This document shows, one piece after another, positions 11,651 to 61,087 of a stretch of 64,000 nt of DNA (positions are counted from its first letter, which is position 1; each line of letters opens with the position of its first letter). This stretch comes from Magnolia sinica (Eukaryota > Streptophyta > Magnoliopsida > Magnoliales > Magnoliaceae). The stretch covers positions 77,682,177 to 77,746,176 of the forward strand of contig NC_080582.1 in NCBI RefSeq assembly GCF_029962835.1. The letters are read 5' to 3'. The notes below the pieces were generated by a model that was not told the DNA's origin, searched no databases, and saw nothing but the letters and a program-made list of their open reading frames with translations. The position numbers were made by a program, and so were the translations under genes.

Positions 11651-12470
11651 AGTAAACTCTTTGGAGACCACCTTGATCGTATTTGGTTTATCCATGCCGT
11701 TCATCAGTTTTTCCAGCTTGTTTCAGTGGTCGAACTCAGCATTGAATCATATCAAAATCTCAATTGGACCACACCACAAGGAAACAGTCGGAATAATGAT
11801 TTCCAACATTGAAATCTTCATAGGGCCTAGAGTGAATTTTATTTGTCATACAATCCGTTCATAAGATAAAAAAGACATGAATGAAGGGAAAAAAACAAAT
11901 ATCAGATTGATCAAAAATTTCTGTGGTGCCTAAAAATTTTAGGTTCAATTCACTTTGTTTATTACGGTGTGGTCCAATTGAGCTAGCTTTGGATTTGTTT
12001 CATTTTCGGGATCAAGACCTAAAAACTCCCCCCTGCCACCATGATGTATGTGTTTCATCGATGCCATCCACCCATTTTTATAGATTATTTTAGGGTATGA
12101 GACCAAAAATGAGTTATATCGCAATCTCAAGTGGACCACATTACACGAAGCAGTGTCATTAAAAACTTTTTGGGCCCATAAAAGTTTTGGATCAAAACAA
12201 TATTTGTTTTTTCCCTTCATCTAGGTCTGTATGACCTAACCAACATATTGGATGTCAAATAAATAGTACAGTGGGCCATAGGAGGATTTTAATGGTGGAT
12301 TTCCAATCATTATTGTTTTCCTTTGGTGTGGTCCACATGAGATTTATATCCTTCTCATTTTTTGTATCAAGCCATAAAATGATATGTAAAAATGGATGAA
12401 CAGCATGGATGAAACATATACATCATCATGGGGCTCAGGTATCACCGACCACCAGCCATGGGGTAGTGGC
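11651..12470. repeat. Two adjoining copies of the GGGCCCACC-type non-autonomous repeat
   Basis: The first lies at about 11651-12050 and the second at about 12035-12470. Each has the shared body: CAATTGGACCACACCACAAG, GTTTTGGATCAAAACAATAT, CCCTTCATCTAGG, then GGTGTGGTCCAC and CATGATGTATGTG or inverted equivalents. No coding sequence. The two halves of each copy are loosely inverted, as in a MITE. Confidence 0.65.
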
Positions 12471-12628: not shown

Positions 12629-13398
12629 TGTTAGGGGGTGAAACTTGAATAAGGACAATCAGGGTAGTCCTAAGCCCTCTGAATCAGTTGATAAGGGCTC
12701 GGAAGTGGAACATTGCAACAAGTACAAACTAACCTCTGAGTCACGATTACAGGATGGGTGGAACAAGCCCTCACCTTTGGTCTCAGGGCGAGTCATCATT
12801 CTCGTACTTAACCCCATCGGAAAGACGACATCCTACGAACTTCGACCCCAAGCATTTCGACAGTAAATTCCGATTGCTATTACTTGATCACAAGCTTAGG
12901 CGAGACGAGGTCGAGCCTGGACTGACACTCCGAATGCTAGAACTTGGCCTCGGAACTAGACAAATCGAGGTCGAGCCCGAGTGAGGACACTCCGAGTGCC
13001 AAGCCTAAAGAATAACCTAAATGCGGACGTGACCAAAGATCTCGCCCGAGGATACGCGCCCTTAAGACACGATACACTACATGATCCAAAGATTGCGGAT
13101 AATATCTCCACGATCGTAATACCCGCATGATTGAGTAAATCGTGCCGAAATTAATGGACGTGATCCTCTTTACCCACTGGTATAAATACCAGGGGACCCC
13201 ATTACAACAGGTACGTAAGATCTCGCACCCTCTCTCTACATCACACAAGTTAGACCCAGATTCCCAGGCCTGACTTAGGCATCGGAGGGTCCCCCAGCTA
13301 AGCCAGGGTCTCCTTTGCTCACCATTTTTGTGCAGGATCAGGGACCGTTTGGAGTAGTCAGCATCGAGAGGAGGGTGATCCAGATTTTGACCTCAACA
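12629..13398 (+). repeat. 5' LTR of the Gypsy element
   Basis: It is 770 bp, TGTTA...CAACA. A TATAAATACCAGGGGACCCC stretch near 13180 is a likely promoter TATA region. The LTR is followed at once by TTTTTTGGCACGATCTGTGG, which sits where a primer-binding site is expected; I do not assign the tRNA. Confidence 0.9.
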
Positions 13399-13453
13399 TT
13401 TTTTGGCACGATCTGTGGAATCGTAGACAAAAAGCTAGGAAGTTTTATCAGAT

Positions 13454-22287: not shown

Positions 22288-23019
22288 TGTTATAGGGAAA
22301 ACTTGAATAAGGACAATCAAGGTCGTCCTAAGTCCTCCGAATCAGTTGATAAGGGCTTGGAAGGGGAACATTGCGGCAAGTATAGACTAACCTCTGAGTC
22401 GCGACTACAGGATGGGCGGAACAAGCCCTCGCCTTCGGTCTCGGGGCGAGTCATCATTCTCGTACTTAACCCCATCGGAAAGATGACATCCTACGAACTC
22501 TAACCCTAAGCATTTCGACAGTAAATTTCGATTGCTATTACTCGATCACAGGCTTAGGTCGAGCCTGGACTGACACTCCGAATGTTAGTACTCGGCCTCA
22601 GAACTAGACAGATCGAGGCCAAGCCCGAGTGAGGACACTCCGAGTGCTAAGCCCAGAGAATAACCTAAATGCGGACGTGACTGAAGATCTCCCCCGAGGA
22701 TACGCGCCCTTAAGACACGATAATATCTCCACGATCGTAATACCCACATGATTGAGCAAATCGTGCTGAAATTAACAGACGTGATCCTCTCTACCCACAC
22801 GTATAAATACCAGGGGACCCCATTACAATAGGTACCCAAGATCTCACACCCTCTCTATACATCACACAACTTAGACCTAGATTCCCAGGCCTAACTTAGG
22901 TATCAAATGGTCCCTCGGCTAAGCCAGGGTCTCCTTTGCTCACCATTTTTGTGCAGGATTAGGGACCGTTTGGAGTGGTCAGCATCGAGAGGAGGGTGAT
23001 CCAGATTTTGACCTCAACA
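22288..23019 (+). repeat. 3' LTR of the Gypsy element
   Basis: It is 732 bp and aligns to 12629-13398. It is preceded by the purine-rich AAGAGAGTAAGAGG. It ends GACCTCAACA, followed by TCCAA. Confidence 0.9.
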
Positions 23020-23399
23020 TCCAATGTTCAAATGGACCACACCATAAGAAACAGTTGAATTTAACATTTATCGTTGAAAATTTCTTGGGCCCACAGAAGT
23101 TTTGGATCAATCTTATATTTTTGTTTTCCCTTCATGCATTTACGTATGATCTAATGAACAGGTTGGATGACATATAAACATCACTAAAGGGCTTAGAAAG
23201 GTTTCAACTGTGGAAATCATTACCCCCACTTTCAGTGGTATGATCCACTTGATCTTTGGATATGCTTCAATTTTAGGTTCAACCCTTTAAATTAGATGGA
23301 AAAAAGATGGACCGCGTGGATAGACCACTTACATTCAAGATGGGCCCAACTGAGTTTACTTGCGCAATCTGAATTCGGAGTAGCCAATCCGTTTCCGAG

Positions 23400-25527: not shown

Positions 25528-27530
25528 CAATTTTTAAATTCTTGAAGTTTTATGAGCCTGATTTAGTAGTATAAGCTAAAGCCTGTTTGGATTTGAGATG
25601 TATTATTGATTTACTTTGCTCCAAGTATTTTTGTAATAGAAATGTAATATTTACCATGATCCCTTCATCTAATATCATTTTTTATTTCACTTTTTTTTTT
25701 TTTTCCAGCTCCAAGGAAAAACAGTTGCATAATCTTGAGTGATCAGTAATATTGAGAAGGATATACATGGCTGACTGGTCTCAACTTCAAAATGAACTGT
25801 TACGTACAATCGCGGAATTACTATCTGCCAATAGGGATTATCTAGCATTTCGTGCCACTTGCAAGTCATGGCGATCAGCCGTAGAGGAAATGCCTCTTCA
25901 TTACCCTTACCAGCTACCACTGTTAATGCTTCCATATGACAAGAACGTCAAGGCCTACAGTGCCTTTAGTTTATCTGATAACAAGATATTTTACCTCAAG
26001 CTATCAGAGGTTCATGGGCTAAGGTATTGTGGTTCTTCCAATGGTTGGCTGGTTGCAGTAGATGAGACGCCTGTCATTCGTTTATTTAATCCATTTACTA
26101 AGAGCCAGATCGAACTTCCTCCAATAACAACATTTTCTGAAGTACTAGGGTTTGACAAATCCAAAGTGGGTGCAGAGTACAATGTACGGTCTTTATTCGA
26201 TGGTGTAGTAGAAACTCCAAACTCGGAATGGATAAGAACCCGCTTCATAAAAAAGGTTGTGGTATCCTCAGACCCTACATCGAACCCCAACTATGTTGTT
26301 ATGGCCCTCCACGGTGAGCTTCAAAAATTGGCATTCTGTAGACATGGAGACAAGGAGTGGACCGTAATTGAAAAGATATGGTGTCCTTATCGTGACATTG
26401 TGTGTTATAAAGAACAATTCTATGTGGTAGATGCTAATGGAAGAGTTGCAATTTGCAACATTGATGGTACTCCCAATGCAGTGGAGGTCATGCCACATAT
26501 GAATATCTATGTGCCGCCACAAATGAATATCTATCGCCGGATGATGTATTTAGTGGAATCAATGGGGGAGCTGTTACAGGTTGTTAGATATCGTCAAGAC
26601 ATTCGTAACGGTGAGGTTGTTAGATATTGTGAGCATAAAGATGGGGATGAATATGATGATAATTGGATATATTATACAGTTAGATTTAAAGTTTTTAAGA
26701 TGGATATAAGTAGGGGGGAGAGGTTTGAGGTGAAAACTCTTGGTGATTGTATGTTGTTCTTAGGCTCAAACTACTCATTATCTCTCTCAGCTCACGATTT
26801 TCCCAGCTTCAAAAGAAATTGTATTTACTTTACTGATGACGCAGTATATTCGTATAAGGCTGGTGTACGAGGGGGTCATGATTTAGGCGTGTTCAACTTG
26901 GAGGATAATAGCATCACATCGTTGCCATGCCAATACCATTCAAGCAATGACTTGGGAATAATTTGGCCTCCACCCATATGGTTGCACACATCTTATCCTC
27001 GTAATGAGGCATTGGAAGAATAATTGCATTTAATGTTTTTTTTAAAAATTATTTCTCAAATACGCATTGGATTATTTCTTTCCATGATTCTTGTTAGTTT
27101 ATATTATCAGATGTTTAGTAATTTGATTAGAGATTGAAGAAGCAAACTTGGAAGTTTGACCATAATATCTATGTGCATTTAGAAATTTAGATTTTCATTT
27201 TCTTACTAAGTTCTATGAAGTTAAACATACAATAGAAACAAGTTTTCAGAGTTAAATTGCTTCAATTCCAATCTGAAGTTAGATTGTTTTGCTTTATATT
27301 GATTATACAAGAAGGCCAGTGTAACTGTCAGTAATCACCTAATTGGAGGACCTATTACCTCCGTCTAATGGTTATTCACCTGTCCATGTGGGGTCCACCA
27401 TCTGCATACTTATCATGCTAATCCAAATATAATTCAGTAGTGCACAATTATCATGTTAATCCAAAATTAAAGCGTGACCCAGAACAATTAGGACAAAGAC
27501 ACTGATGAATACAAAGGGCTAGCCTTGTCT
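25528..27530 (+). repeat. Duplicated F-box locus, copy 2
   Basis: It is collinear with 8727-10680, including the 5' flank and about 500 bp of 3' flank. Homology stops at AATACAAAGGGCTAGCCTTG, short of where copies 1 and 3 continue, and a tandem-repeat region follows. Confidence 0.85.
25767..27023 (+). CDS. F-box protein with DUF295 domain, 418 aa
   Basis: This is the intact member of the three local copies. Residues 1-45 (MADWSQLQNELLRTIAELLS, then RDYLAFRATCKSWRSA) are a plant F-box, the segment that binds SKP1 in an SCF ubiquitin ligase. The middle is beta-rich and likely a beta-propeller-like substrate-binding part. Residues 351-405 carry the DUF295 signature: NCIYFTDD, GGHDLGVFNLED and WPPPIW. 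Length is normal for the family. The ATG at 25767 was chosen because it starts the F-box directly; a TTG-led extension upstream is not credible. A long pyrimidine run ending CAG about 60 bases before the start suggests a 5'-UTR intron. Substrate unknown. There is no intron in the coding part. The proposed role, ubiquitin-ligase adaptor, is from the family only. Confidence 0.9.
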   Translation: MADWSQLQNELLRTIAELLSANRDYLAFRATCKSWRSAVEEMPLHYPYQLPLLMLPYDKNVKAYSAFSLSDNKIFYLKLSEVHGLRYCGSSNGWLVAVDETPVIRLFNPFTKSQIELPPITTFSEVLGFDKSKVGAEYNVRSLFDGVVETPNSEWIRTRFIKKVVVSSDPTSNPNYVVMALHGELQKLAFCRHGDKEWTVIEKIWCPYRDIVCYKEQFYVVDANGRVAICNIDGTPNAVEVMPHMNIYVPPQMNIYRRMMYLVESMGELLQVVRYRQDIRNGEVVRYCEHKDGDEYDDNWIYYTVRFKVFKMDISRGERFEVKTLGDCMLFLGSNYSLSLSAHDFPSFKRNCIYFTDDAVYSYKAGVRGGHDLGVFNLEDNSITSLPCQYHSSNDLGIIWPPPIWLHTSYPRNEALEE

Positions 27531-28431: not shown

Positions 28432-29536
28432 TGATGGATGGTCCATATCAAAGGAGACCCCACATGATGGGTAGTACACAAGGGTGGAGCCCACACAATG
28501 GATGGTTGACATCAAAGGTGGACCACACATTATGGATGACCCATATCAAGGTGAGCCCACATAATAGATTCTCCACATCAAAGGTAGGCCCCTAATAATG
28601 AATGACCCACATTCAAAATGAGCCAGTATGATGGACAACCCACCTTGAAGGTACGGACCACATGATGGATGGTCCAATATTAAAGGTGGGCTCCTCATAA
28701 GGGGACATGGATAGTGAAGGTACCCCTACATGATGGACAATAACATTGAAGCCAGCTCCCACATGATGGATGACCCACATCAAGGTGAGCCCCACATAAT
28801 GGGCAGTCCACATCAAAGGTTGGCCCTTAATGATGAATGACCCACATCAAGGTGGGCCCCACATAATGGGCAGTCCACATCAAAGGTTGGCCCTTAATGA
28901 TGAATGACCCACATCAAGGTGGGCCCCACATAATGGGCAGTCCACATCAAAGGTTGGCCCTTAATGATGAATGACCCACATCCAAGGCGGGCCTGACATG
29001 ATGGATCACCCACATCAAAGGTGGGCTCTACATGATGGGTGGTGGATATTAAAGGTAGGCCCCACATGATAATCAATTTATTTTAATGGTGGGCCCCACA
29101 TGATGAATGACCCACGTCAAGGTGGGCCCCAAATACTGGACTATCTACATAAAAGGCACTGATGATGAATGGCCCACATCCAAGGTGGGCCCCACATGAT
29201 GGACAGTCCAGATTTAAGGTTGGGCTCACATGATGGATGGTCCACATCAAATGTGGGTTCTACATGATTGGCGGCGGATATTAAATGTGGGTCCCATATG
29301 ATTGACAATAACATTAATGGTGGGCCCCACATGTTAGATGACCCATATCAAGGTGAGCCTCACATGAGGACAATTTACCTCAAAGGTCTCCTATGATGAA
29401 TGACCCACATCCAAGGCAGGCCCGCTATATGAATGACCCACTTCGAATTTTGGCCTTGCATGACATGATAGACGTCCCACATCTAAGGTGGCCCACATAA
29501 CGGATAGCCCACATCGAAGGCGGGACTTGCAAGGTG
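28430..29536. repeat. Degenerate minisatellite, ~33 bp unit, with a 67-bp higher-order repeat
   Basis: The basic unit is close to GATGGATGACCCACATCAA plus GGTGGGCCCCACAT. It alternates with a variant (AATGGGCAGTCCACATCAAA, then GGTTGGCCC). Three nearly identical 67-bp double units start at 28784, 28851 and 28918. About 30 basic units are seen. The words are the same as those in the scattered GGGCCCACC repeats, so the array may have grown from one of them. Confidence 0.85.
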
Positions 29537-30415
29537 GATGTTCAACTTGGAGGATAATAGCTAGCATCACATCGTTGCCATACCGTTCAAGCAATGATTT
29601 GGGAACCATGAACCATTTGGCCTCCGCCCATATGGTGTGCATCTTATCCTCGTAACGAGGCGTTGGAAGAATACTGCATTTAATGTTTTTTTTTTAAAAA
29701 AGTTATTTCTCAAATGCACATTGGATTAACATTATTTCTTTCCATGATTCTTGTTAGTTTATATTATTATATCTTTGCTAATTTGATGAGAGATTGAAGA
29801 AGCAAACTTGAATTTTAACCATAATGTCTCTGTGCATTTAGAAATTTAGAATTTGATTTTCTTACTAAGTTCTGTAAGTTAAACATACTATAGAAACAAG
29901 TTTTCAGAGTTAAGTTGCTTCAATTCCAGTCTAAAGTTAGATTACTTTGCTTTATATTGATTATACAAGGAGGCCAGTGTAACACTAATCATCTAATTGG
30001 AGAACTTATTACCTCCATCTAATGGTTATTCACTTATCCGTGTGGGGTCCACCATGTGGATAATTAGATCCAAATATAATTCATTAGTGTACAATTATCA
30101 TGCGAATCCAAAATTCAAGCATGACCCATAACAGAGCAATTAGGACAAAGACACTGATGATTAAAAAGCTTCTAAATTGTGTGTGGGGCTAGTCATTTCT
30201 TTTTATTGTGTGTGGGACCTACACTTTCTTCTTCTTTTTTAAAATTACGTGCCGTCAGTAGATGCTCTCACACCGAATGAATGGATAGCCCAAAATTCAG
30301 GTCATTCCAAATGATTTTAGAGGTATTCCGAATGATTTTACATGGGTTTGGCCCACTTCAGATTTGGATTAACCTCACTTTTTAGTTCCAAGGGAAACAT
30401 GAAAGGGCATACATG
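29537..30415 (+). pseudogene. 3' fragment of the F-box/DUF295 locus, third copy
   Basis: It begins abruptly inside the minisatellite with TTCAACTTGGAGGATAATAG, the code for FNLEDN near the DUF295 signature. About 135 bases of coding remnant follow (with small insertions and losses relative to the other two copies), then the 3' flank. The flank matches copy 1 past the point where copy 2 ends, to GAAAGGGCATACAT at about 30415. It carries an extra TTCTTCTTCTTT segment near 30228. It contains no F-box and cannot encode a protein. Confidence 0.85.
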
Positions 30416-47600: not shown

Positions 47601-47674
47601 GAGAATCTATCTTTCAATAATACTAATGAATATGATCATTGTGTAGTTATCATTATTATTTGACACTTTTCCTT

Positions 47675-47774
47675 TCGGCCCTTACTCATGGCTTAGTGGT
47701 AGACTCACAAGAGTTTCAACACTAAGGTCATGAGTTCAAGTACCCATTGTGGTGTGTGAGGGTGTGCACATTAA

Positions 47775-47954: not shown

Positions 47955-48720
47955 TTGTTTTGTTTTTTAGAATTGATAATTTTATTTAAAGATCCAAAAG
48001 ACCCAGTAGAAAATTGAACATAGAAAAACAAAAGCAAAAAAGATAGAATTGCCCACATGGCATGATAAATAAAACTTCACAAATGTTCAGCAATATTGTC
48101 TATTACATATTGAAAGTAGAGAGGATTTTGTCCCACACTTATGAAGCATAAGGGCAATGGATAAAGAGAAGCACCACTGATACATCATCCTTTATGGACA
48201 AAAGGTAAACATGGGTTTCTGTATTTGATCCATCTACCCAAGCTCGAAATGCTATATTTGCCCACGATGACTTCCTCCAGCTCGAATCTCCAAACTCATT
48301 TTTCCAATAATACAAAGTTCACCCTCTCTAGGTTTTTCTAATCCCAACCCCTATCTCATTAAAAGACCCACAGGCCTTCTCCCAACTCAAAAGGTGGAAC
48401 TTACTTTGCTTGCCTCTCCCTTGCCAGAGAAAGTCCCTATGTAACTTCTCAATCCTTAAGAATGATTTCGGGTAGCGAAAAGCGGAGATAAATTAAAGGG
48501 AAAGGTTCAATAGGGCGGATGTGGGATTTGATAAGAGTAATTCTTCCTCTCAAAGAGATCAATCTTCCCCACTATAGGGACAGTTTCCTCTTCATCCTTT
48601 CAATAACCAAATCTTAGAAATGTCTGACAAGCTTTCCCACCACACACATAGAGAGACCCAGATAAGTAGAAAGAAAAGAACCTGGCTAACATCCCAATCA
48701 CCTTGCTAAAGAAGAGACTT
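47955..48720 (-). mobile_element. L1-type LINE remnant (reverse-transcriptase 3' part)
   Basis: Read on the reverse strand, about 48620-48440 gives VIERMKRKLSL, then WGRLISLRGRITLIKS. These are the hallmark words after the YLGLP motif in plant L1 ORF2 (VIERxxxKLSSWK, LSxGGRLTLIKSVL). Further pieces continue to about 48250 (ERVNFVLLEKWVWRF, like the usual NKALLSKWLWRF). Stops and frame changes are frequent, so it is old. A T-rich patch at 47950-47966 may be the poly(A) end. Confidence 0.75.
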
Positions 48721-48951
48721 CTCCCTCCTCCAAATTAACAATGAAGAGTTCGCTCTCCGCAAGACTAACTTTGAGATTTCTCCCTCCTCCAAATTAACCC
48801 CTAAGAGTTCACTCTTCGCAAGACTTAACTTTGAGACTTTCCCTCCTCCAAATTAACCCCTAAGAGTTCACTCTTCGCGAGACTTAACTTCGAGACTTCT
48901 CCCTCCTCCAAATTAACCCATAAGCGTTCGCTCTTTGCAAGACTAACTTCG
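48714..48951. repeat. 59-60 bp minisatellite, four units, inside the LINE remnant
   Basis: Units begin near 48714, 48773, 48833 and 48892. Each reads GAGACTTCTCCCTCCTCC, CAAATTAACCCCTAAGAG, TTCGCTCTTCGCAAGACT. A partial repeat in GAGAGAGAGAGGGCT(A/G)GACAATTTTAG(A/C)TCAT follows twice (about 48963, 48999). Confidence 0.9.
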
Positions 48952-48959
48952 AGACACTG

Positions 48960-49671
48960 AATGAGAGAGAGAGAGGGCTGGACAATTTTAGATCATGAGA
49001 GAGAGAGAGGGCTAGACAATTTTAGCTCATCACGAGCCCAAGCTAGGCTCGGGGGCTTTAACAATGCAGGCCTGGTTTGAGCAGGGCTTGGCCCCACCCC
49101 AACTCTACCTGTCAATAACTAGCATCCAATCTTTGAATATTTTTGGTACAATGTGTGCCACCCAATTCTTATGGGTTTGATTTTAAGTTTGACCTAGACC
49201 CGACTTGGTTCAGACCTGGACCTGACTGAAACCAAGGACCAGAGAGCCGATGGGTACCTAGACCGGATCTAGGTTTGAGTCTTTTAAAATCCAGACCCAA
49301 CTCAAAAGTATCGGACCCTGGTAGGACATGAACCGAACTCGACCTGCTGAAAGCCTAACTCCAAAACCAAACAACCAATAATTACAATCATGGTTTGATG
49401 ACTCATTCTAGTGAACTCGTTTTTGTTCGGGACCAATACCAGTGAGTCACCCTCAACTCTAGTGAGTTGGACTGATTTACTCCTGATTCGACTAAGCGAC
49501 GAGTCACCGAGTTATTAAAAATAAAAAATAAAACAAAAAAAAAAAAAAACAGGTTTACAATGGACAAAACTAGCCTTTCTTCATCACACTTACAAGATTA
49601 GATATAGTGGTTGCTTGTACATGCTTTCATTCATGGTTGAAGCCAGGGAATTTGTGGAATCCTGATGTAGA
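48960..49671. other. Non-coding; no gene seen
   Basis: Words such as GAGCCCAAGCTAGGCTCGGG and CCAGACCCAACTCAAAAG resemble the subterminal parts of hAT-type elements. An A run lies at 49536-49549. Confidence 0.35.
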
Positions 49672-50907
49672 ATCGTGGTCCGCCAACTCCACTGTGGATG
49701 AGAGTAGGACCCACTTAACCATGGATGGGCCATGTGATCTTTCTGACCATTCAAAATTTTGGCAGTGGAGTAAACTGTCGACTGCTAGCTCCATGATTTT
49801 ATTTGCCGATTGATTTAATGGCTATGATCGTTTGTGGCAACTCCATGCATTTCCCATGACTTCTTTATGGTGGAACTCATATCTTGAACGCTCCGATCAT
49901 CAATATGTCTAGGCCCACTACCGGACTACAATTTCACTTTACTAGTATGCAAACCATAAGACTTGAAACTAATCAATCGCGAGAGAGAGAGAGCATTGCA
50001 AGATCATATAATGGTCAAACTAGAGTGAAAGCAGTAGGGTCAGGTTTCAATTTGTAGACAGGGCCATGGTTCAGTGAACTAAACCGTCAATGCAATGGCC
50101 CCACTCTGGATGACCATGCACCACAAATCACTCAAATGGAAATTTGGGTCTTCAAATTGGTATTCATCCACATTTGACCAACAAAAAGCCAAAGATTCAA
50201 GAGCTAGGATCTCTAATCTTGAAATTTTCGGCCCACATCCATGGCAGAGCCTATCAAATCAACAGTTCATATCACCGAGCCGCGGGACCCGCTTAGAGAA
50301 GCTCGACAAACCCACCACCACATGAACAAATGGTGCTTGCAGTCATGCATTGAGATTCAAAAAGCAACTGAAGCATTGAGAGTTATTGAAATTTCTAGAG
50401 AATTACAACAAGAAAAACCAAGAAATCTGAAGCATACTTTCCAAGAGATGGAATCACCTCAGGTTGCTTTGCGATTTACTTTGAGATATGAAAGCGCATC
50501 GATCACATTGTCATAATCGCTTCGATTGACTTGGATGTGTAGAAAATAAACAGTGGAGCTGTCAAAAAGCATGTTGGCCAAAGATAAAGAAACATGAAAA
50601 AAAAAGAGGCAACATCTCCGGTGTGATGGCAGTCTGGAAAGCTTATTTTCACTACAGTTTTGGTATTGCAGGGAAGATTGAGTCAGTTCGGTACTGACTC
50701 GATCCTTTCCTCCGAGGCTGCAACTGAGCCAAACCGAACTCAATTGATTCAGAATGAGTCGAGTGCACGCCACAGGTCTGGCGTAGCTAGAGGAGCTCCC
50801 TCTCCTCAAACCTTCTTCTTCTAAGCAAGTGAACGGGTCGAAATCAATTCCTAACTCGTTCCACTCAGTGGTCCGAGTCGAGTCGTGACACAATCGCACT
50901 CGGACAC

Positions 50908-50948
<41 letters not shown>

Positions 50949-50972
50949 TACTATTTTTTCTCGAATGTTGCC

Positions 50973-52164
50973 TGATGCAAGACATGAAATTCAAGTATGA
51001 TGTGCAAGAATTCAGGCTTAGATCATACCAATTTAAAAACAATTACACAAATTCTACATCCCACATGATAGTCCAAACATTCAATGAAAGGGGAATCTAT
51101 GCGGGTCCAGGCTGGACCAATAAAAATTATAAGCCAAACGATGTCAAAAGGAAATAGAAATCAACCGCACATGCATAAGAATCAGTCCCTAATCCAAGGG
51201 ATTCCCCAATTTCAATTCAAGGAACCCTAGGGTGAAAAAAATGGGCAAATAAACTAAGGCTAATGCAAACTAAGGCTAGGGTTTAGGAAAGAGGAATGAA
51301 AAGAGGAAAACTTGACCCGGAGAAAGCTCCTACGTGCAGATGGTGACCCGGAGCTGACACACGTGCGCAGGTGGGCTGGCCGCACGTGTGATGGAAGCCC
51401 GCCTCCCCAAAGTGACACCTAGGCCTTGGTCGGCCGAGGGAGACCTCCAATCCCTCCAAGTTTGACGACGATCCGACGTAAGGTCGAGGCGTAGTGCTCC
51501 GCCGAAGTTTCAGCCCTCCTACAAGTCCAAATTATGGAAACTGGCTGTAAGAGGGTGAATAGCTGCAAAGGCTGGGAATTTCAAAGCAATAATGATGATA
51601 AAATATGAGGTATATAAATGGGAGAAGGTAGAGATGGATGGGGATAGATGTGGCTTCACACCACGAAGTTAGCCCTTCGAAAAGGGAGGGCTTCGTACCC
51701 ACTTTTGAATTCTTCCACAACTCACAAAGAGAGCAGAAAAATAAAGTAGGAATTTTTTTATTAAAGTTGAATGAATGAAAAGAACTACAAGTGGTGCATA
51801 TTTATAGGGAAAATCTTATACCCCAAAACTCACACCATGTGCGCAACCTATTACTTGGCGGTGAAGTAAATTAAAATAAAAACCAAACAAAGAAATCCAA
51901 AACATTCACGATGTTCTAAATAATAACAATAAGCAAAACCAAAAATATGACATCAATCCGACGAGTGAGCCACGATCATGAGGTCCCATGATGGGCTTTT
52001 CTTGACTATCAGGCCCACCCTTTTAAACCAAAACTTCGTCTTCTAGCTAGGAGGCCCTCCCTGGATGTCGTCATCAGGCTAGATCGTCGGTGGGGCCATC
52101 CCTCTCCTTCCGTACGTGCGTAGGGGGCGACGTGTGTGCGTGTGTGCACGTGATGTCCCCATCA
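50973..52164. mobile_element. Solo LTR, 1.19 kb
   Basis: It begins TGATGCAAGAC and ends CCCCATCA. The 5-bp target duplication TTGCC is at 50968-50972 and 52165-52169. The sister site at about 57345 (CGAATGTTGCCCTAACATTC) is uninterrupted. No internal retroviral coding sequence is present, as expected after LTR-LTR recombination. Lineage not assigned. Age unknown, but younger than the duplication of the surrounding unit or segregating with one copy. Confidence 0.88.
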
Positions 52165-52245
52165 TTGCCCTAACATTCGGCCTATTTAAGATTCCGACCA
52201 GTTTCGAGAAATTTCTATACTAATTACGGGATTAGTCGCGTTTTT

Positions 52246-52475
52246 AGCGGTGGGTGGATAGAGAATTCTTGCTGTTGCAATTTCTCACCAAAAGCTCGTC
52301 AAATTGTCGAATCGCAATAAGGCTCCTGATAGCCCTAGATCCAGCATTCCAGATTCATCGTGACTCTTCTAGAAGGCAGGGAAGGGTTGAGATTGCACCA
52401 GCGCCTAAAACGGAGAGATTCAGATTCTTTTCGCTTTCAGCCAAGGGCAGAATCATTTCCGTAAGTTTGGTGTGA
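52246..52475 (+). other. Leader-exon-like part of block R
   Basis: The stretch ends in a strong donor (ATTTCC|GTAAGTTTGG) and is open in one frame from about 52254 (RIAIRLLIALDPAFQIHRDS). The other two R copies keep the wording but with deletions, and the matching donor in the minus copy is altered. It looks like the first exon or 5' UTR of a gene that was captured in the repeated unit; I do not recognise the protein. Confidence 0.3.
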
Positions 52476-53297
52476 CTAGGACTCTATTTTCCAGCTGAGT
52501 AAAGGGGACTCAATTTAATACTATCGTAAATAAAGAAAGAAGTACATATTTAGAAATTTCTTTAGGCCAGTATATCAACAGGCCAACCCGAGGATGGAAC
52601 CCAGCATATCAACAGGCCAGCTTACTAAAAGGTGGGGCCAAGAAGTATGATTCCTAGGTTACAAGATCAGCACAGTTTCATGTAGTTGCTCACAAGAAGC
52701 CTGAAAATCAAAATATTGATCTGTTTCAACATCAATGCAGGTAACTATGTGATTGCCATGCTTTGTTAAAAGGTAGTGAGTCAAGTGTGAATCAATCCAG
52801 ACCGTGCAAATCATTTCGAAAGGGATTCAATCGTGGTCCGCCAACTCCACTGTGGATGAGAGTAGGACCCACTTAACCATGGATGGGCCATGTGATCTTC
52901 CTAACCATTTCGAATCAACTGAGTTCGGTTCGGCTCAGTTGCAGCCTCAGAGGAAAGGAACGAGTCAGTACCGCACTGACTCAATCTTTCCTACAATGCC
53001 GAAACTGTAATGAAACTAAGCTTTCCAAACTGCCATGCACAGGAGATGTTGCCTTTTTTTTTTCATGTTTCTTTATCTTTAGCCAACATGCTTTTTGACT
53101 GCTCCACTGTTTATTTTCTACAGAGTCAACCGAAGCAACTATGACAATGTGATCGGTGTGCTTTCATGTCTCAAAGTAAATTGAAAAGCAACCTGAGGTG
53201 ATTCCATCTCTTGGAAAGTATACTTCAGATTTCTTGGTTTTTCTTGTTGTAATTCTCATGAGATTTAAATAACTCTCAATGTTTCAGTTGCTTGCTT

Positions 53298-53456
53298 CTT
53301 CTTTTTTTTTGGATCCTTACCCTTGCTCGGGTGGTAGACTCTCTAGAGTTTCAACACCCGGTCTAGGGTTCGAGTATCCATAGGTGGTGAAATTCCACTA
53401 AGGCGTGAGTGTGTGGGGGTGTTTGTGTGCGTGTAAAAAAACAAAAAAAAAAAAAA
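53298..53456 (+). mobile_element. tRNA-derived SINE inside block Q'
   Basis: A box CTCGGGTGGTAGACTC, B box GGGTTCGAGTATCC, A-rich tail (53436-53456). Target duplication GTTGCTTGCTT at 53287-53297 and 53457-53467. The two other Q copies (about 50360 and 54213) have the empty site AAAAAGCAACTGAAGCAT. Confidence 0.9.
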
Positions 53457-54792
53457 GTTGCTTGCTTTTTGAATCTCAATACATGATTGCAAGCACCATT
53501 TGTTCATGTGGTGGTGGGCTTGTCGAGCTTCTCCAAGTGGGTCCCATGGCTCGGTGATCTGAACTGTTGGTTTGATAGACTCTGCCATGGATGTGGGCCA
53601 AAAATTTCAAGATTAGATCCTGGCTGTTGAATCTTTGGCTTTTTGTTGGTCAAATGTGGACCAATTCCAATTTGGAGACTACAATTTCCATTTGGGTGAT
53701 TTGTGGTGCATGGTCATCCAAAGTGGGGCCCATCACATTGATGGTTTAGTTCACTGAACCATGGCCCTATCTACAAATTGAAACCTAACCCTACTGCTTT
53801 CACTCTAGTTTGACCATTATATGATCTTGCAATGCTCTCTCTCTCTCTCCTGATTGATTAGTTTCGAGTCTTGTGGTCCGCAGACTAGTAAAGTGAAATT
53901 GTAGTCCGGTAGTGGGCCGCCACTGTGGATGAGAGTAGGACCCACTTAACCATGGATGGGCCATGTGATCTTCCTGACCATTCAAAAATTTGGAAGTGGA
54001 GTAAACTATCGACTGCTAGCTCCATGATTTTATTTGCCGAGCCAAAGATTCAACAGCTAGGATCTCCAATCTTGAAATTTTCAATGCACATCCATGGTGG
54101 AGCCTATCAAATAAACAGTTCAGATCACAGAGTCACAAGACCCACTTGGAGAAGCTGGACAAACCCACCACCACATGAACAAATGGTGCTTGCAGTTATG
54201 GATTGAGATTCAAAAAGCAACTGAAGCATTAAGAGTTATTGAAATCTCTTGAGAATTACAACAAGAAAAACCAAGAAATTTGAAGCATACTTTCCAAGAG
54301 ATGGAATCACCTCAGGTTGCTTTTCGATTTACTTTGAGATATGAAAGCTAACCGATCACATTGTCATAGCTGCTTCGGTTGACTTGGATCTGTAGAAAAA
54401 AAACAGTGGAGCTGTCTAAAAGCATCGGCCAATGATAAAGAAACATGACAATATAATCAATGTATGGAGGAAAAAAAAAAAAAAGGCAACAATTCTGGTG
54501 CGATGGCAGTCTGGAAAGCTTGGTTTCACTAGAGTTTTGGTATTGCAGGGAAGATTGAGTTAGTACGGTACTGAATCAATCATTTCTTCCGAGGCTGCAA
54601 CTGAGCCGAACTGAACTCAATTGATTCGGAATGGTCAAGAAGATCACATGGCCCATCCATGGTTAAGTGGGTCCTACTCTCATCCACAGTGGAGTTGGCG
54701 GACCATGATTGAATCCCTTTCGAAATGATTTGCACGGTTTGTATTGATTCACATTTGGTTCACTACCGTTTAACAAAGCATGACAATCACAT

Positions 54793-56674
54793 GTAAGTGG
54801 GTAAGTGGGAAGTGACTTACAGGGAAGTCACTTACAGGTGGTGTTTGGGGGAGAAAAATCACCTGTAAGTCACTTACAGGCAAATCTACCAAAAAACTGC
54901 AGGGGGATGGGGGTGGGAAGTCACTTCCCGACTTACAGGCTCAACAGTCAAATTTTTAAAAAGAGGGGAAGAGGGAGAAACGCACCAACCCACCAACCAC
55001 CATTATAGCTATGAAGCTCCAGCCAATGAAGAAGAAGCACCAGCCATTGAAAACGGCAATCTCTCTCCGTCTCTGCAATCTCTCCCCCTCCCTCTCCACA
55101 ATCTCTCGCTGTAGTTACCGCCTTCCGTCTCTTCTCCTCCTAAAACGGTAGGGTTTCATCTACCCTTTTTTCTCCTTTGAAAACGGAAGGGATCGCGTGC
55201 TGAGTAATCCGTAAAATCTGTGGGATCCACCATGATATATGTATTTGATCCACACTGTCCATCCATTTTAGTACTTAATTTTAAATCATGATCCTAAAAA
55301 TTAGCTATATCCAAAGATCAAGTGGACCACAACATAGGAAATGGTGTGAATTGAGTGTATACCTTTGAAATTTTTTGGGGGGCCACAAAAGTTATGGATC
55401 AAGATGATTTTTTTTCCCTTCTTTCAGGTGTTTGTGATCTCATGAACATGTTGGATGAGAAATAAAGATCTCTATGGGCACTAGAAAGGTTTCAATGATC
55501 CAATCAGTATTTCCACTGTTTCTTGTGAAATGGCCCACTTGAGCTTTGGATATTCTTAAATTTATGGCTCAACATCTACATCTAGATGAAAAAATGGATG
55601 GACGGATTGGATAAACCCCATACATTTACAGTGGGCCCAACTGAATTTACTTAGTATAAAAAAAAGTATAGCAGCAACTCAGTACACAGTCTGATTGCGT
55701 TACTAGTAACACGGTAGTGGGTATTACCCCTGCCGTGGGCCCACCTTGATGATGTGTTATATATCCATTGAGATTTGATTGGTGGGACGTATGCTTACAG
55801 TGTAAGTTTTCATTGGCCAGCAACCACAGTTCCCTTATATGGACCAGTGGCCTGGATCAGAAAACCATGAATCCATCATGTATATGGTACATAAATCCTA
55901 TTTATTCTTATGGCCCTTGCAACCAAGGCCATTTTTCAAATGGACCCACTATGGATGGACCATGACCCAATTCTTCACTTGATCATTAATAACTGTTCAA
56001 CTGCAAATATCCACGGTACATTTGATTCTTGATTTCTATAACTGGAGCCATGGTTCAGCAATCCAAATGAATAGGCCGCAGTAGGGCTGACCATGGATGG
56101 CATTTCTTCAGTTTAATGCGGGCCATTGATGTACACTTTGGAATAAGCCCTATTCAAATGAATAAATGGTTGGACAGGATGATTCCCAAGTGAAAAGTTT
56201 TAAATGTAATTTCTATAATTAAAGAAGACATTGGTAATGTAATTTAATTAGTAGATTTTCTATTAATGTTTTTAACTTTATTCTCAATGCTTAAATTGAG
56301 TTATTACTCCATATTATAGATATTTTGAATTCGTGGGCCACTTTTATAGCCCACTTGATGACTGGTTTAGCTTAATAATTATCTTAAATATTCATCTTGA
56401 TGGGCTTAACAAAATAACATATTTGAACCCACGTTTTTTTTATATGATTATAACATTTTAGAATGATTCCTCAATCTAATCTCTGCTCGATGTAAATATT
56501 CAGCTTTTTACCTGTAAGTAACTTACAGGTCATCCAAACAGAAAAACTAACTTACCTGTAAGTGACTTACAACTTACATTCAAACAGGTTACCTGTAAGT
56601 AACTTTCACCTGTAAGTGACTTACCTGTAAGTCACTTACAACTTAAAAGAATTTACAGGCATCCAAACAGGCCT
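54793..56674. mobile_element. 1.9 kb DNA element with CCTGTAAGTNACTTACAGG palindromes
   Basis: Both ends are crowded with the self-complementary word CCTGTAAGT(C/G/A)ACTTACAGG and partial copies: left 54793-54945, right about 56508-56660. The right end finishes AGGCATCCAAACAGGC. The interior has a GGGCCCACC-type repeat (about 55205-55640) and AT-rich sequence, no transposase. The sister copy at about 52740-52765 (CAGGTAACTATGTGATTGCC) is uninterrupted, which fixes both borders to within a few bases. Confidence 0.8.
55205..55730. repeat. GGGCCCACC-type MITE nested in the 1.9 kb element
   Basis: The left is GTGCTGAGTAATCCGTAAAA and GGGATCCACCATGATATATG. The right is CAGTGGGCCCAACTGAATTT, ACTTAGTATAA, then ACTCAGTACACAGTCTGATT. 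End words agree with the copies at 12485 and 58195. Confidence 0.65.
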
Positions 56675-57455
56675 ATAGTTACCTGCATTGATGTTGAAAC
56701 AGATCAATATTTTGATTTTCAAGCTTCTTACTTGTGAGCAACTACGTGAAACTGTGCTGATCTTGTAATCTAGGAATCATACTTCTTGGTCCCACCTTTT
56801 AGTAAGTTGGCCTGTTGATATGCTGGTTTCCATCCTCGGGTGGGCCTGTTGATTTACTGGCCTAATGAAATTTCTAAATATGTACTTCTTTCTTTATTTG
56901 CGATAGCATTAAGTCGAGTCCCCTTTGCTCAGCTGGAAAATAGAGTCCTAGCCACACCAAACTTACGGGGATGGTTCTGCCCTTGGCTGAAAGCGAAAAG
57001 AATCTGAATCTCTCTGTTTTAAGCGCTGGTGCAATCTCAACCCTTACCTGCGTTCTAGAAGAGTCACGATGAATCTGGAATGCATGCTGGATCTAGGGCT
57101 GCCAGGAGCCTTATAGCGATCCGACAATTTGACGAGCTTTTGGTGAGAAATTGCAACGGCAAGATTCTCTATCCAGGTCTGGCGTAGCTAGAGGAGCTCC
57201 CTCTCCTTCAAACCTTCTTCTTCTCAGCAAGTGAACGGGTCGGAATCAATTCCTGACTCGTTCCACTCAGTGGTCCGGGTCGAGTCGCGACACTGCTCTC
57301 TCTCTCTCTCTTTTCTCTTTCTTTTCTTACTATTTTTTCTCGAATGTTGCCCTAACATTCGGGCTATATAAGACTCCGACCCGTTTCTAGAAATTTCTAC
57401 ACTAATTACGGGATTAGTCGCGTTTTTAGCGGTGGGTGGATAGAAAATTCTTGCT

Positions 57456-57760
57456 CAAGGGCTCCTAAACTAGGTTTAACGGTTACATGCGTTCGAGCGG
57501 CTATTCGTGATCTGTTTTTGATGAGGTGGGCCTTACATTGAACGACTTAGATTGGTGAATGTGGCAGGATTAAAGAAGATGGGTTTTCTCAGCCGGCCGA
57601 GGAGGATGACTCATCTATCATGGCGATTTTTGGTTGATCGGTGGATCTGATGATCCAAGTCTCCTAATTGGTTCGGATGGTGTTCAGTAGGCTTGTTGAG
57701 TCCACCTTTTGGTGAAGGGAGGGCAGTAGATTAGGATGTCTTAAAAAACATCTCGCCCCG
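57456..57760. other. 305-bp insertion of unknown kind in block R
   Basis: The sister copy at about 52270 reads straight through (AATTCTTGCTGTTGCAATTT). Here 305 bp stand between TTCTTGCT and TTGCAATTTC. No inverted ends, tail or target duplication are obvious. It has GGTGGGCCTTACATTGAACG and similar words, and no frame of note. Confidence 0.6.
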
Positions 57761-57952
57761 TTGCAATTTCTCACCAAAAGCTCGTCAAATTGTCGGATCG
57801 CTATGAGGCTCCCGGCAGCCCTAAATCCACCATTCCAGATTCATCGTGAGACTCTTCTAGAAGGCAGGGAAGGGTTGAGATTGCACCAGCGCTTAAATCT
57901 TTCAGCCAAGGGCGGAACCATTTGACTCTATTTTCCAGCTGAGCAAAGGGGA

Positions 57953-58194
57953 CGTGGATTTCTCTATCCGATTGGTGTTTGCAGTTAGGTAGGTTGGGCC
58001 TTGGCTTGTGTTCACAACCAAACCTTACATCGTGAGATCTGACCCTTGTTTTGGTCGTTGATCTCTTTTTCTCGCGATGGACGGTCTGGATTAACCGAAT
58101 AGATCTTCATTAGTGGCCAAAATCATGACAGCGGTTCGTCCTTTTGAATCGTAGCTGGCGGTAAAGAAAAGAGGTGGATAGCATTCCATTTCGG
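57953..58194. other. Non-coding; no gene seen
   Basis: Short unique-looking gap between the inverted array and the next small element. Confidence 0.35.
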
Positions 58195-58765
58195 GGAAGC
58201 GGATTGGCTGGTGAACCATACACCAGCTATAAAAATCGGATTTCGTACCGACGCTCTTATCGTATTTAGTAAACTGAATTTGGTCCACCTTAAATGTATG
58301 TGATTTATCTACGCCGTCCATCCGTTTTTCCATTTAATTTAAGTGGTTGATCCCAAAAATGAAGCATACCCAAAGATCAAGTGGATCATACCACAGGAAA
58401 CAGTGGGGATAATGATTTCCACCGTTGAAACCTTTCTAGGCCCCATAGTGATCTTTATTTATCATCCAAGCTGGTCATAAGATCATAGAGACATGGATGA
58501 AGGGGAAAAAAAATATAAACTTGATCAAAAACTTCCGCGGCCACCAAAAAAAATTCAACGGTAGAAGGTCAATTAATTTTTTTCCTGTGGTGTGGTCCAT
58601 TTGAGAATTTTATATGGTCCATCTTTGAAATAGGAACTAAAATTATCTTTTAAAATTGATGGACGGAGCGGATCAGATACATAGATCATGTTGGACCTCA
58701 CAAAGTTTACTCAGTACGCTAAGTGTAGTGAGTAACTCACTACGCAATCCACTTCCCCTATATAG
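58195..58765. mobile_element. GGGCCCACC-type MITE, nearly complete
   Basis: It starts GGAAGCGGATTGGCTGGTGA with the hairpin wording CACCAGCTATA, and has the full shared body. It ends AAGTTTACTCAGTACGCTAA, GAGTAACTCACTACGCAATC, CACTTCC. Followed at 58767 by TAGGTACGTGTCGTGCGAAG, the leader word of the copies at 36.4 and 59.3 kb. Confidence 0.7.
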
Positions 58766-58839
58766 GTACGTGTCGTGCGAAGAAGAATTAATTCCATGCT
58801 TTGTTGGTAATACGATGGTACATTGAATGGATATACCCA

Positions 58840-59275
58840 CCATCATTTGAAATTACTGAGAATAACACACGTGTTATATCTAAACCGTTCATTTGTTTTG
58901 TAACCTCATTTTATGGCATGGGCCTAAAAATGAGGTAGATCCAAAACTTATATAGCCCCATTGAAGTTTTCAACGGTAAGTATTCAATCCCCGTTGCTTT
59001 CTATGGTGGGGTCCACTTGAGCTTTAGATTAACCTGATTTTTTGGCCCATGCTCTAAAATAATCTCAAAAAATGGGTGGACGGTGTGGATCTAACCTACA
59101 CATCATAGTGGGACCTACACAACTTGCTAACATGGAGTGAAATTGGCATGGGACCCAATGCAATTCCATCGACAGCTTTTCCATCCTCCCCAAACATGGA
59201 GTGGAATTGGCACGGGACCAGATGCAATTCCATCCCACCTAATCCCAGTGCCCAAACACGCCCTTAGGTTGGTGC
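58840..59275. repeat. Partial GGGCCCACC-type repeat and a 66-bp tandem pair
   Basis: The body is at about 58860-59125. At about 59130-59265 the segment AACATGGAGTG(A/G)AATTGGCA ... GATGCAATTCCATC is present twice in tandem. It ends CCCAAACACGCCCTTAG, a wording of hAT-type termini. Confidence 0.6.
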
Positions 59276-59305
59276 GCCGTCTTACATCTTTGTAATGTGC
59301 TTTTT

Positions 59306-59855
59306 AGGTACGTGTCGTGCGAAGAAGAGCGCTACGTTCCTCGAGCTCCGAGTTGTACGAACGGTTCAAAGGAGATCAAAGTTACACGGCCCCACAGTGA
59401 TGTATTTATTATATCCACACCGTTCATCCATTTTTAAAGATCATTTTAGCATATTATCTAAAAATAAATCATATCCAAAGATCAAATGAACCACACCACA
59501 AATAGCAGTAGAGATAATGATTTTCACCGTTAAAAAATTCTTAGGGCCCACCATAACGTTTATTTTCTATCCAGTATGTTCATAAGGTCAGGAAGACCGG
59601 GATTAAGAGGAAAAACCAATTTCATATTGATCCAAGACATCTGTGACCCCTAAAAGGGTTTCAATGGTATACGTTCAATCCCACACTGCTTTTTTTCTGT
59701 GTGGTCCACTTGATAGTTATGCCTGTCTTATTTTTTGTCTCTAACCTTGAGACGAGGTCAAAAATTTTATGGACGGTTTGGATACAATACAATACATACA
59801 TCAATACATCAGCTGTGTAGCTGGTGTGTGGTACACCAGCCAATTTGCTTCCCCA
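59306..59855. mobile_element. GGGCCCACC-type MITE with CTGGTGTGTGGTACACCAGC end
   Basis: The left is TAGGTACGTGTCGTGCGAAG and CGAGCTCCGAGTTGTACGAA; the right is GTGTAGCTGGTGTGTGGTAC and ACCAGCCAATTTGCTTCC. The same right-end hairpin stands at 36383-36400 in inverted form. The body is shared with the pieces nested in the hAT at 36.1-37.3 kb (AAATAGCAGTAGAGATAATG). Confidence 0.72.
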
Positions 59856-60369
59856 TTTCGGGCCGGCTCGGTTCAGTTTCACCCGATATAACATTAGGCA
59901 CCCTGCAGTCGTACGTGTTAATACGTACAAGCAGGTTGGCCGTGGGGTCCACTAACTAAGTTCATGAAAATCTAGACAGTTGGTTAGTTTCTTGATGATT
60001 TCCTAGGGCTTTAATTCAAGGGTTTGATAGATACAACGAATTAGTGGGCCACACTATGAGGTATGGGTGTTTATTTGTCATTTCCTACTGTGTCAATGGT
60101 TGGATTGGCCCAAAATCAGTTTTTAAGCTCCAGTTGTTCTCAAGTAAGCTTATTTTGGGAGTTTATTTAGAAGGTGCTTGAATTTGGTTAGTACTCTTTT
60201 GGCTTATTATGAGCATGGTAAATATTACATGGTCACATGGTCATTGTCTTATAAATCTAATTTAATTTAGTTTTAATATATTGGAAGGTGTAATTAATGG
60301 TGATAATAGAGAAGTATTAATTTCACTTGTAAGTTGAATTGATGGGGCAAGCACCATCGGAAGAAGTGA
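59856..60369. other. Non-coding; no gene seen
   Basis: AT-rich. One patch (CTATGAGGTATGGGTGTTTA) recalls small-element wording. Confidence 0.35.
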
Positions 60370-60469
60370 GGGGTCATGTGGTACAAAGATCCCTGTTCTA
60401 AATCTACTCTCAATAAAAGTGACATGTTTTCCCAACCATTCAAACTTTCACTAAATTGGCCTCTCTTGT

Positions 60470-61087
60470 ATAATTATCTAAATTATCAGCCTTTTGGGTT
60501 TTTTGGTACCAACAATCCTTTATATGTCCGGTTATCCGACAATTCTAATACATTTTACCTTTACACTTAGATTTGGACCTCGATCACGAATTCTCTTTCT
60601 TCCGCTTAAAACTTCTTCTCTTAACAACTAATACATCCGTAGAGATATTGTCACCTCCATTCTTCTCTCTCAACTGATTTGAATGAACTAAAATAATGAT
60701 TTTGACGTCAATGGTCTCCCTGCCATGGTAAAAAGTATTTACGAGGTTCTCGTAAGACTTTATAAGAGAATTCAACGGGATTAAGGAATGATCTTCCTTG
60801 TCAATATTCACCTTCACACTTATCAATTTGCAAAGTATTCTATTGAAATTGCTGATATGTTCATTGAGATTTGTCCCTTCTGTCATCTTCACATTATAAA
60901 ACTGGTTCTTAAAAAACAAATGATTATAGAGCAATCTTATTATGTAGAGGTTCTCCAACTTCGCCCCTAATCTAGCAGTAGTCATCTCGCTAATAACATT
61001 ATATAAGACCTTATTGGCCAAACACCTTATTAACCTTATACTAACCACGTGACCAAATTTGACATCGAACCACGACATACATAGCAC
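60470..61087 (-). pseudogene. Copia gag fossil
   Basis: The reverse strand encodes a 167-residue stretch with the order of Copia gag (UBN2-like): NVISEMTTARLGAKLENLYI, LFFKNQFYNVKMTEGTNLNE and LIPLNSLIKSYENLVNTF. A decayed CCHC-like region follows near 60500-60540. No LTR or pol part was identified beside it. Truncated and broken; old. Confidence 0.82.

Follow-up and report, generated by a model that had tools for sequence, protein, structure and literature searches.

An alternating inverted array in Magnolia sinica: a possible old inverted triplication reshaped by later insertions and deletions

The structure described here is an inverted array of repeated blocks in Magnolia sinica, located within a 64,000-nucleotide stretch of contig NC_080582.1 (positions 77,682,177 to 77,746,176, forward strand), which we call the window and whose own numbering we use throughout. 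The array spans 49671-57953, these being the first and last repeated bases found when the window is compared with itself. We read it as an old interstitial inverted triplication that arose by template switching and was later made asymmetric, and we put the probability of this reading at roughly 0.5; so read, the array is a further case of a known kind of structure. Much of its apparent complexity is later damage, namely four inserts plus deletions in two of its arms.

An alternating inverted array had been predicted from the letters of the sequence, and self-comparison in direct and reverse orientation confirms it, with both ends falling within one base of those first proposed. The inverted matches pair 49897-50367 with 53932-53462 (90.7%, E 1e-155), 50362-50756 with 53293-52906 (89.9%, E 5e-126), 52255-52748 with 57175-56675 (92.8%, E 2e-175) and 52747-53293 with 54792-54215 (85.3%, E 5e-166). 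The direct matches pair 50187-50763 with 54040-54639 (86.1%), 50773-50972 with 57174-57351 (83.6%), 52165-52273 with 57347-57455 (93.6%) and 52274-52409 with 57760-57897 (92.0%). Together, these matches far exceed chance. Base-by-base reading and a four-arm alignment resolve them into a + - + - series of arms, L1, R1, L2 and a short R2, with a spacer of about 260 bp enclosed by L1/R1 and again by L2/R2, in + orientation both times:

49671..50760, + strand: arm L1, with block a at 49671-49829, a linker, and blocks b-c at 49912-50760; left edge of the array.
50773..52254, + strand: spacer S1, with block e at 50773-50972 and block f at 52165-52254; split by a solo long terminal repeat (LTR).
52255..53918, - strand: arm R1, with d, an 82 bp piece, a, c' and b'; the inverted copy.
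53919: junction J2 between R1 and L2, GTAGTGGGCC then GCCACTGTGG.
53920..57175, + strand: arm L2, with a at 53920-54040, inner b plus c at 54040-54639, a' at 54624-54710, the 82 bp piece, and d' running to 57175.
57176..57434, + strand: spacer S2, e-f, uninterrupted.
57435..57953, - strand: arm R2, incomplete and consisting of inner d only; the array's right edge, GGGGAC/GTGG.

With the inserts removed, the order becomes L1(+) a-b-c / e-f / R1(-) d-82-a-c'-b' / L2(+) a-b-c-a'-82'-d' / e-f / R2(-) inner d only. Blocks a and a' are mutually inverted over 64-87 bp at 94-98%. The alignment also shows what is missing: L1 is without the a'-82-d' part found in L2, L2 is without a counterpart of L1 49830-50186, and R2 has a deletion of 21 alignment columns and another of 23. 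L1 is linked to its spacer by 17 bp (50757-50773), for which the window has two other matches at up to four mismatches, each with four. Two descriptions fit the whole equally well: + - + with a short additional arm in inverted orientation, or two palindromes in direct tandem, the second of them truncated.

Neither of the immediate flanks (49031-49670 and 57954-58192) matches any part of the array, so that three copies in + - + order lie between flanks that are not repeated within it, and the array occurs nowhere else in the window. Farther right, the sole match of 58193-60000 to the array is a repeat resembling a miniature inverted-repeat transposable element (MITE), which lies within one of the inserts. 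The alternating orientation of the arms rejects plain tandem duplication, as the original prediction had held, and the junctions it placed near 53917 and 57175 correspond to 53918/53920 and about 57175 here. Three unrelated insertions of one simple element are likewise rejected, because the joints c/a' and 82/d are common to R1 and L2, and the spacer is common to S1 and S2. Two of the predicted quantities need adjustment. The predicted minimum of three copies is right for arms b-c, which occur three times; the fourth arm is short and partial. A unit is indeed repeated, but its proposed size of about 3 kb was inflated by later insertions, R1 being about 1.5 kb without its short insert and the L1 plus L2 composite about 1.7 kb (by coordinate arithmetic). 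The four insertions are as follows:

50973..52164: solo-LTR-like element in S1, 1192 bp, TGATG...CATCA; ends read by eye.
53298..53455: insertion in R1 resembling a short interspersed nuclear element (SINE), with an A-rich tail; ends read by eye.
54792..56674: 1.9 kb insertion in L2; R1 retains the uninterrupted sequence.
57456-57757: 302 bp insertion in R2.

The first of these is bordered by a 5 bp target duplication, TTGCC (50968-50972 / 52165-52169), and S2 retains its empty site; its ends and target duplication suggest that it is a solo LTR. The insertion in R1 is bordered by AGTTGCTTGCTT (53286-53297 / 53456-53467) and has a 73% match at 47666-47754; it may be a SINE with a tRNA-like B box. 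The ends of the 1.9 kb insert are rich in GTAAGT/ACTTAC and partly inverted with respect to each other (54792-54883 ~ 56640-56552, 71%), no target duplication was recognised at them, and the insert contains the MITE-like dispersed repeat, at 55204-55656. That repeat belongs to a family whose halves are partly self-complementary, with other copies at 58262-58717, 58926-59119, 59388-59797, 11651-11940 and 23019-23361, several of them grouped directly to the right of the array.

How such a structure could arise is best stated as a sequence of steps. The parent would have been a segment of somewhat less than 2 kb of apparently non-coding plant DNA, which became + - + beside the short inverted arm R2 at its outer end. 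Interrupted inverted repeats on both sides of the segment would have let a nascent strand or fork change to the opposite strand, so that the segment was copied backward and then forward again, with the flanks retained. On the right, these repeats would be the inner arms of d, which enclose the 260 bp spacer, and on the left a weak one of 7 bp enclosing block a. Deletions beside the junctions would then have removed parts of L1 and L2, leaving asymmetric palindromes, and insertions into single copies would afterwards have brought in the SINE-like piece, an LTR element of which a solo LTR is left, the 1.9 kb DNA-transposon-like element and the 302 bp piece.

The order and orientation of the arms, their common spacer, private insertions, missing parts and divergence are direct observations; a template switch and a single event are what we infer. 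An inverted triplication made by template switching is recognised by + - + order between retained flanks and by junctions that lie on interrupted inverted repeats, as described for yeast (PMC4689423). L2 and R2 plainly form such an interrupted inverted repeat around S2 (d', the spacer of about 260 bp, d); R2 would then be a repeat that was there before the event, although it could also be a fourth copy that was truncated. The left switch points would fall in the parent on an inverted repeat matching at 6/7 positions, GTGGTCC (49675-49681) and GTGGGCC (reverse strand of 49912-49918).

The arms differ from one another at approximately 6-11% of gap-free sites, to which the pairwise difference counts of this paragraph refer. 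In b-c, the differences are 47/554 for L1-R1, 54/567 for L1-L2 and 62/551 for R1-L2; the outer part of b differs between L1 and R1 at 20/275 sites, and a'-82-d differs between R1 and L2 at 37/654. For inner d, the counts are 14/245 (R1-L2), 14/202 (R1-R2) and 12/210 (L2-R2), and the spacers S1 and S2 differ at 16/262. The three b-c arms carry 17, 27 and 32 private differences, which is compatible with similar ages. Transitions away from the majority base in b-c occur at 12/29 CG, 11/49 CHG, 15/155 CHH and 16/317 A/T sites, an excess at CG and CHG as would be expected for methylated repeats. The CG excess is not special to the array, since three other repeat pairs in the window have a similar one (20/92, 13/80 and 20/94); in the spacer, 1/34 CG-context sites has changed, a small number. 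Elsewhere in the window, the direct repeat pair 12641-13399 / 22299-23020 differs at 61/722 sites.

Four observations weigh against an inverted triplication formed in one event. The first is that R1-L2 divergence steps from 63/557 (11.3%) in b-c to 35/645 (5.4%) in a'-82-d (permutation p 0.006), and the step lies at 54639, which is the c/a' joint; one event and one clock do not predict this, and the reading needs local rate differences or gene conversion as well. Secondly, a pre-existing R2 should be older than or equal in age to the other arms, and its observed distance from L2 and R1 (12/210 and 14/202) is about that of R1 from L2 in inner d (14/245). Thirdly, the core of block a differs at only 2-3/81 sites among L1, R1 and the inner L2 copy, which is below its neighbours (by eye, the outer L2 copy has 1/62 difference from each of the other copies). 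Both the step at 54639 and the low divergence of block a might stem from uneven mutation rates or from gene conversion between the arms. Finally, the left 6/7 repeat is weak and was picked after the joint had been seen, and 5.7% of 20,000 random position pairs match as well (within +-3 bases).

A two-step origin, which we consider possible but rather unlikely, would first form one palindrome around e-f and then duplicate it in direct tandem, the second copy losing its outer right arm. Such a history fits the single orientation of both spacers and the repeated L-spacer-R order, and it explains R2 as a truncated copy whose age is that of the others, R2 being as close to them as they are mutually; the spacer (16/262) and a'-82-d (37/654) divergences are also similar. 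However, it calls for an extra large deletion at the right edge, and it predicts that L1 and L2 should be closer than L1 and R1, a trend absent from the counts (54/567 for L1-L2 against 47/554 for L1-R1), though gene conversion could mask such a relationship.

Also unlikely, to a slightly greater degree, is that the palindrome represents a non-autonomous DNA transposon with very long terminal inverted repeats (TIRs), of the foldback or Mutator-like type, two copies of which inserted next to each other. The left edge of the array coincides exactly with the start of block a, a and a' are inverted as transposon ends might be, and other repeat pairs of the window have diverged to a similar extent. 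Nevertheless, a search for a target duplication of the array found none (the longest word common to the 20 bases beyond either edge has 5 bp, GTGGA, and does not lie at the left edge), with the proviso that the right end may be truncated; both copies have incomplete right ends, and the 64 kb window holds no additional copy. Stop-to-stop frames of at least 60 amino acids in 48500-60500 number 47, and the 10 scanned against Pfam contain no transposase domain; nine of the 10 touch the array, two of these within the solo LTR and a third within the 1.9 kb insert, and the tenth lies to the right of the array.

We also considered that the c-to-spacer joint of L1 is ancestral and that a' was added later; c and a' share GAATG where they join, but this seems to require more events. 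A palindromic assembly chimera is very improbable: palindromes are a known source of misassembly, but chimeras would give near-identical arms, and here the arms are about 6-11% diverged and single arms have insertions of their own, two of which are flanked by target duplications.

The inverted triplication preferred here can be set beside several known systems. Origin-dependent inverted-repeat amplification (ODIRA) requires a replication origin in the amplified segment, and the SUL1 amplicons of yeast are larger than this array. ODIRA in yeast yields an inverted triplication with junctions at interrupted inverted repeats, and a palindromic junction may afterwards lose one of its arms by deletion (PMC4689423); the small inverted triplications of PMC13334657 average 148/160/148 bp. 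The array shares with both the + - + order and the retained flanks, and its junctions may likewise lie at interrupted inverted repeats, with secondary deletion of part of an arm; the parts missing from L1 and L2 beside the junctions resemble the one-arm deletions at yeast palindromic junctions (PMC4689423). It differs from both in being old (about 6-11% diverged), from a plant, somewhat less than 2 kb in unit length and weak in its left inverted repeat, whereas the inverted triplications of these papers (PMC4689423, PMC13334657) arose recently, in cells of yeast and human. Foldback or long-TIR transposons such as Tetris of Drosophila (PMC4079207) are similar in their long inverted arms, short spacer and modular rearranged structure; unlike elements of the Tetris type as described there, the array is without target duplication and has incomplete outer ends, no tandem subrepeats are reported in its arms, and no second locus was found within the window. 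Aberrant Ac transposition in maize can also create duplications, some of them inverted (PMC3744419). A literature search, judged by title and start of abstract and with subscription journals mostly outside its coverage, gave among the papers listed a chloroplast-genome study and no inverted triplication in a plant nuclear genome. If the reading is true, an old, decayed plant triplication with readable junction deletions would show how such structures age.

It had further been proposed that a transcript across any junction would form a hairpin and could be a source of small RNAs. The first part is right in principle: the 769 nt of 53462-54230 can form a long RNA hairpin with a predicted energy of -403.3 kcal/mol, against -215.0 +/- 8.9 for shuffled sequences (z -21.2; 0/20 shuffles as stable), and the 1001 nt of 56900-57900, folded without shuffles, give a long stem that encloses the spacer. 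Counting perfect duplexes that reach 20 bp, there are 11 between L1 and R1, 15 between R1 and L2 (the longest 67) and 3 between L2 and R2. The hairpin is imperfect because the arms differ by about 6-11% and inserts of up to 1.9 kb break them. A small-RNA source is physically sound as an idea, predicted from the sequence alone. In having inverted arms capable of hairpin RNA, the array is like IR71 and IR2039 of Arabidopsis (PMC4687873) and VIM4-VIM2 in Cvi-0 (PMC13213937); those loci are backed by RNA or small-RNA evidence, whereas hairpin RNA from the array is a prediction from sequence, and no gene was recognised in its arms in the frames tried.

Two extensions of this idea can be stated. The fossil triplication's imperfect hairpin RNA, transcribed from TATA-bearing spacers, might yield small interfering RNAs that maintain methylation of the array, in which case a replication error would have created a self-silencing locus; we think this improbable. 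Still less probable is a small-RNA inverted-repeat locus kept by selection, in which transcripts from the spacer or from outside would cross 53918 and feed Dicer-like enzymes. The stability of the hairpin and the 15 perfect R1-L2 duplexes are in its favour, as are TATA-like motifs in both spacers (52182-52190 and 57364-57372, found by eye). Against it stand the divergence of the arms with its excess of CG and CHG change, the inserts that interrupt them, the lack of any Rfam family at gathering score in the window, and the lack of a recognisable gene fragment as a target in the frames tried. If true, the triplication would mean that one replication error can yield a potential hairpin-RNA locus; if the array gives no small RNAs, it is ordinary repeat-rich plant DNA. 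With no gene recognised in the frames tried and no Rfam match, we therefore treat it as non-functional unless small-RNA data differ, and most likely it has no function.

The 10 frames scanned have no Pfam domain, the only match up to E 1 being TraK_N (E 0.19, under the cut-off), and Rfam gave 0 matches at gathering score over the whole window. By eye, the stretch from spacer to d (52165-52480 and 57347-57925) resembles the start of a gene, with the TATA-like motif, an open frame and a GTAAGT site; its frames have no Pfam match, and one of them, the exon-like frame 52248-52472, has no solved-structure match up to E 1.

The window has the look of nuclear plant DNA, with a G+C content of 41.3%, and its Pfam matches (10 of its 53 longer frames scanned) are a KIB1-4 beta-propeller/F-box gene pair and pieces of retrotransposon polyprotein. 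The KIB1-4 gene is a direct duplicate (8728-10697 and 25528-27516) with 109/1956 gap-free sites different; the left copy is split into two frames (8937-9251 and 9251-10195), the right copy is a single frame, and a partial copy lies at 29538-30373. A degenerate tandem array with periods of 34, 67 and 231 bp, rich in CCACATCAAAGGTGGGCCCCACA, occupies 28432-29423.

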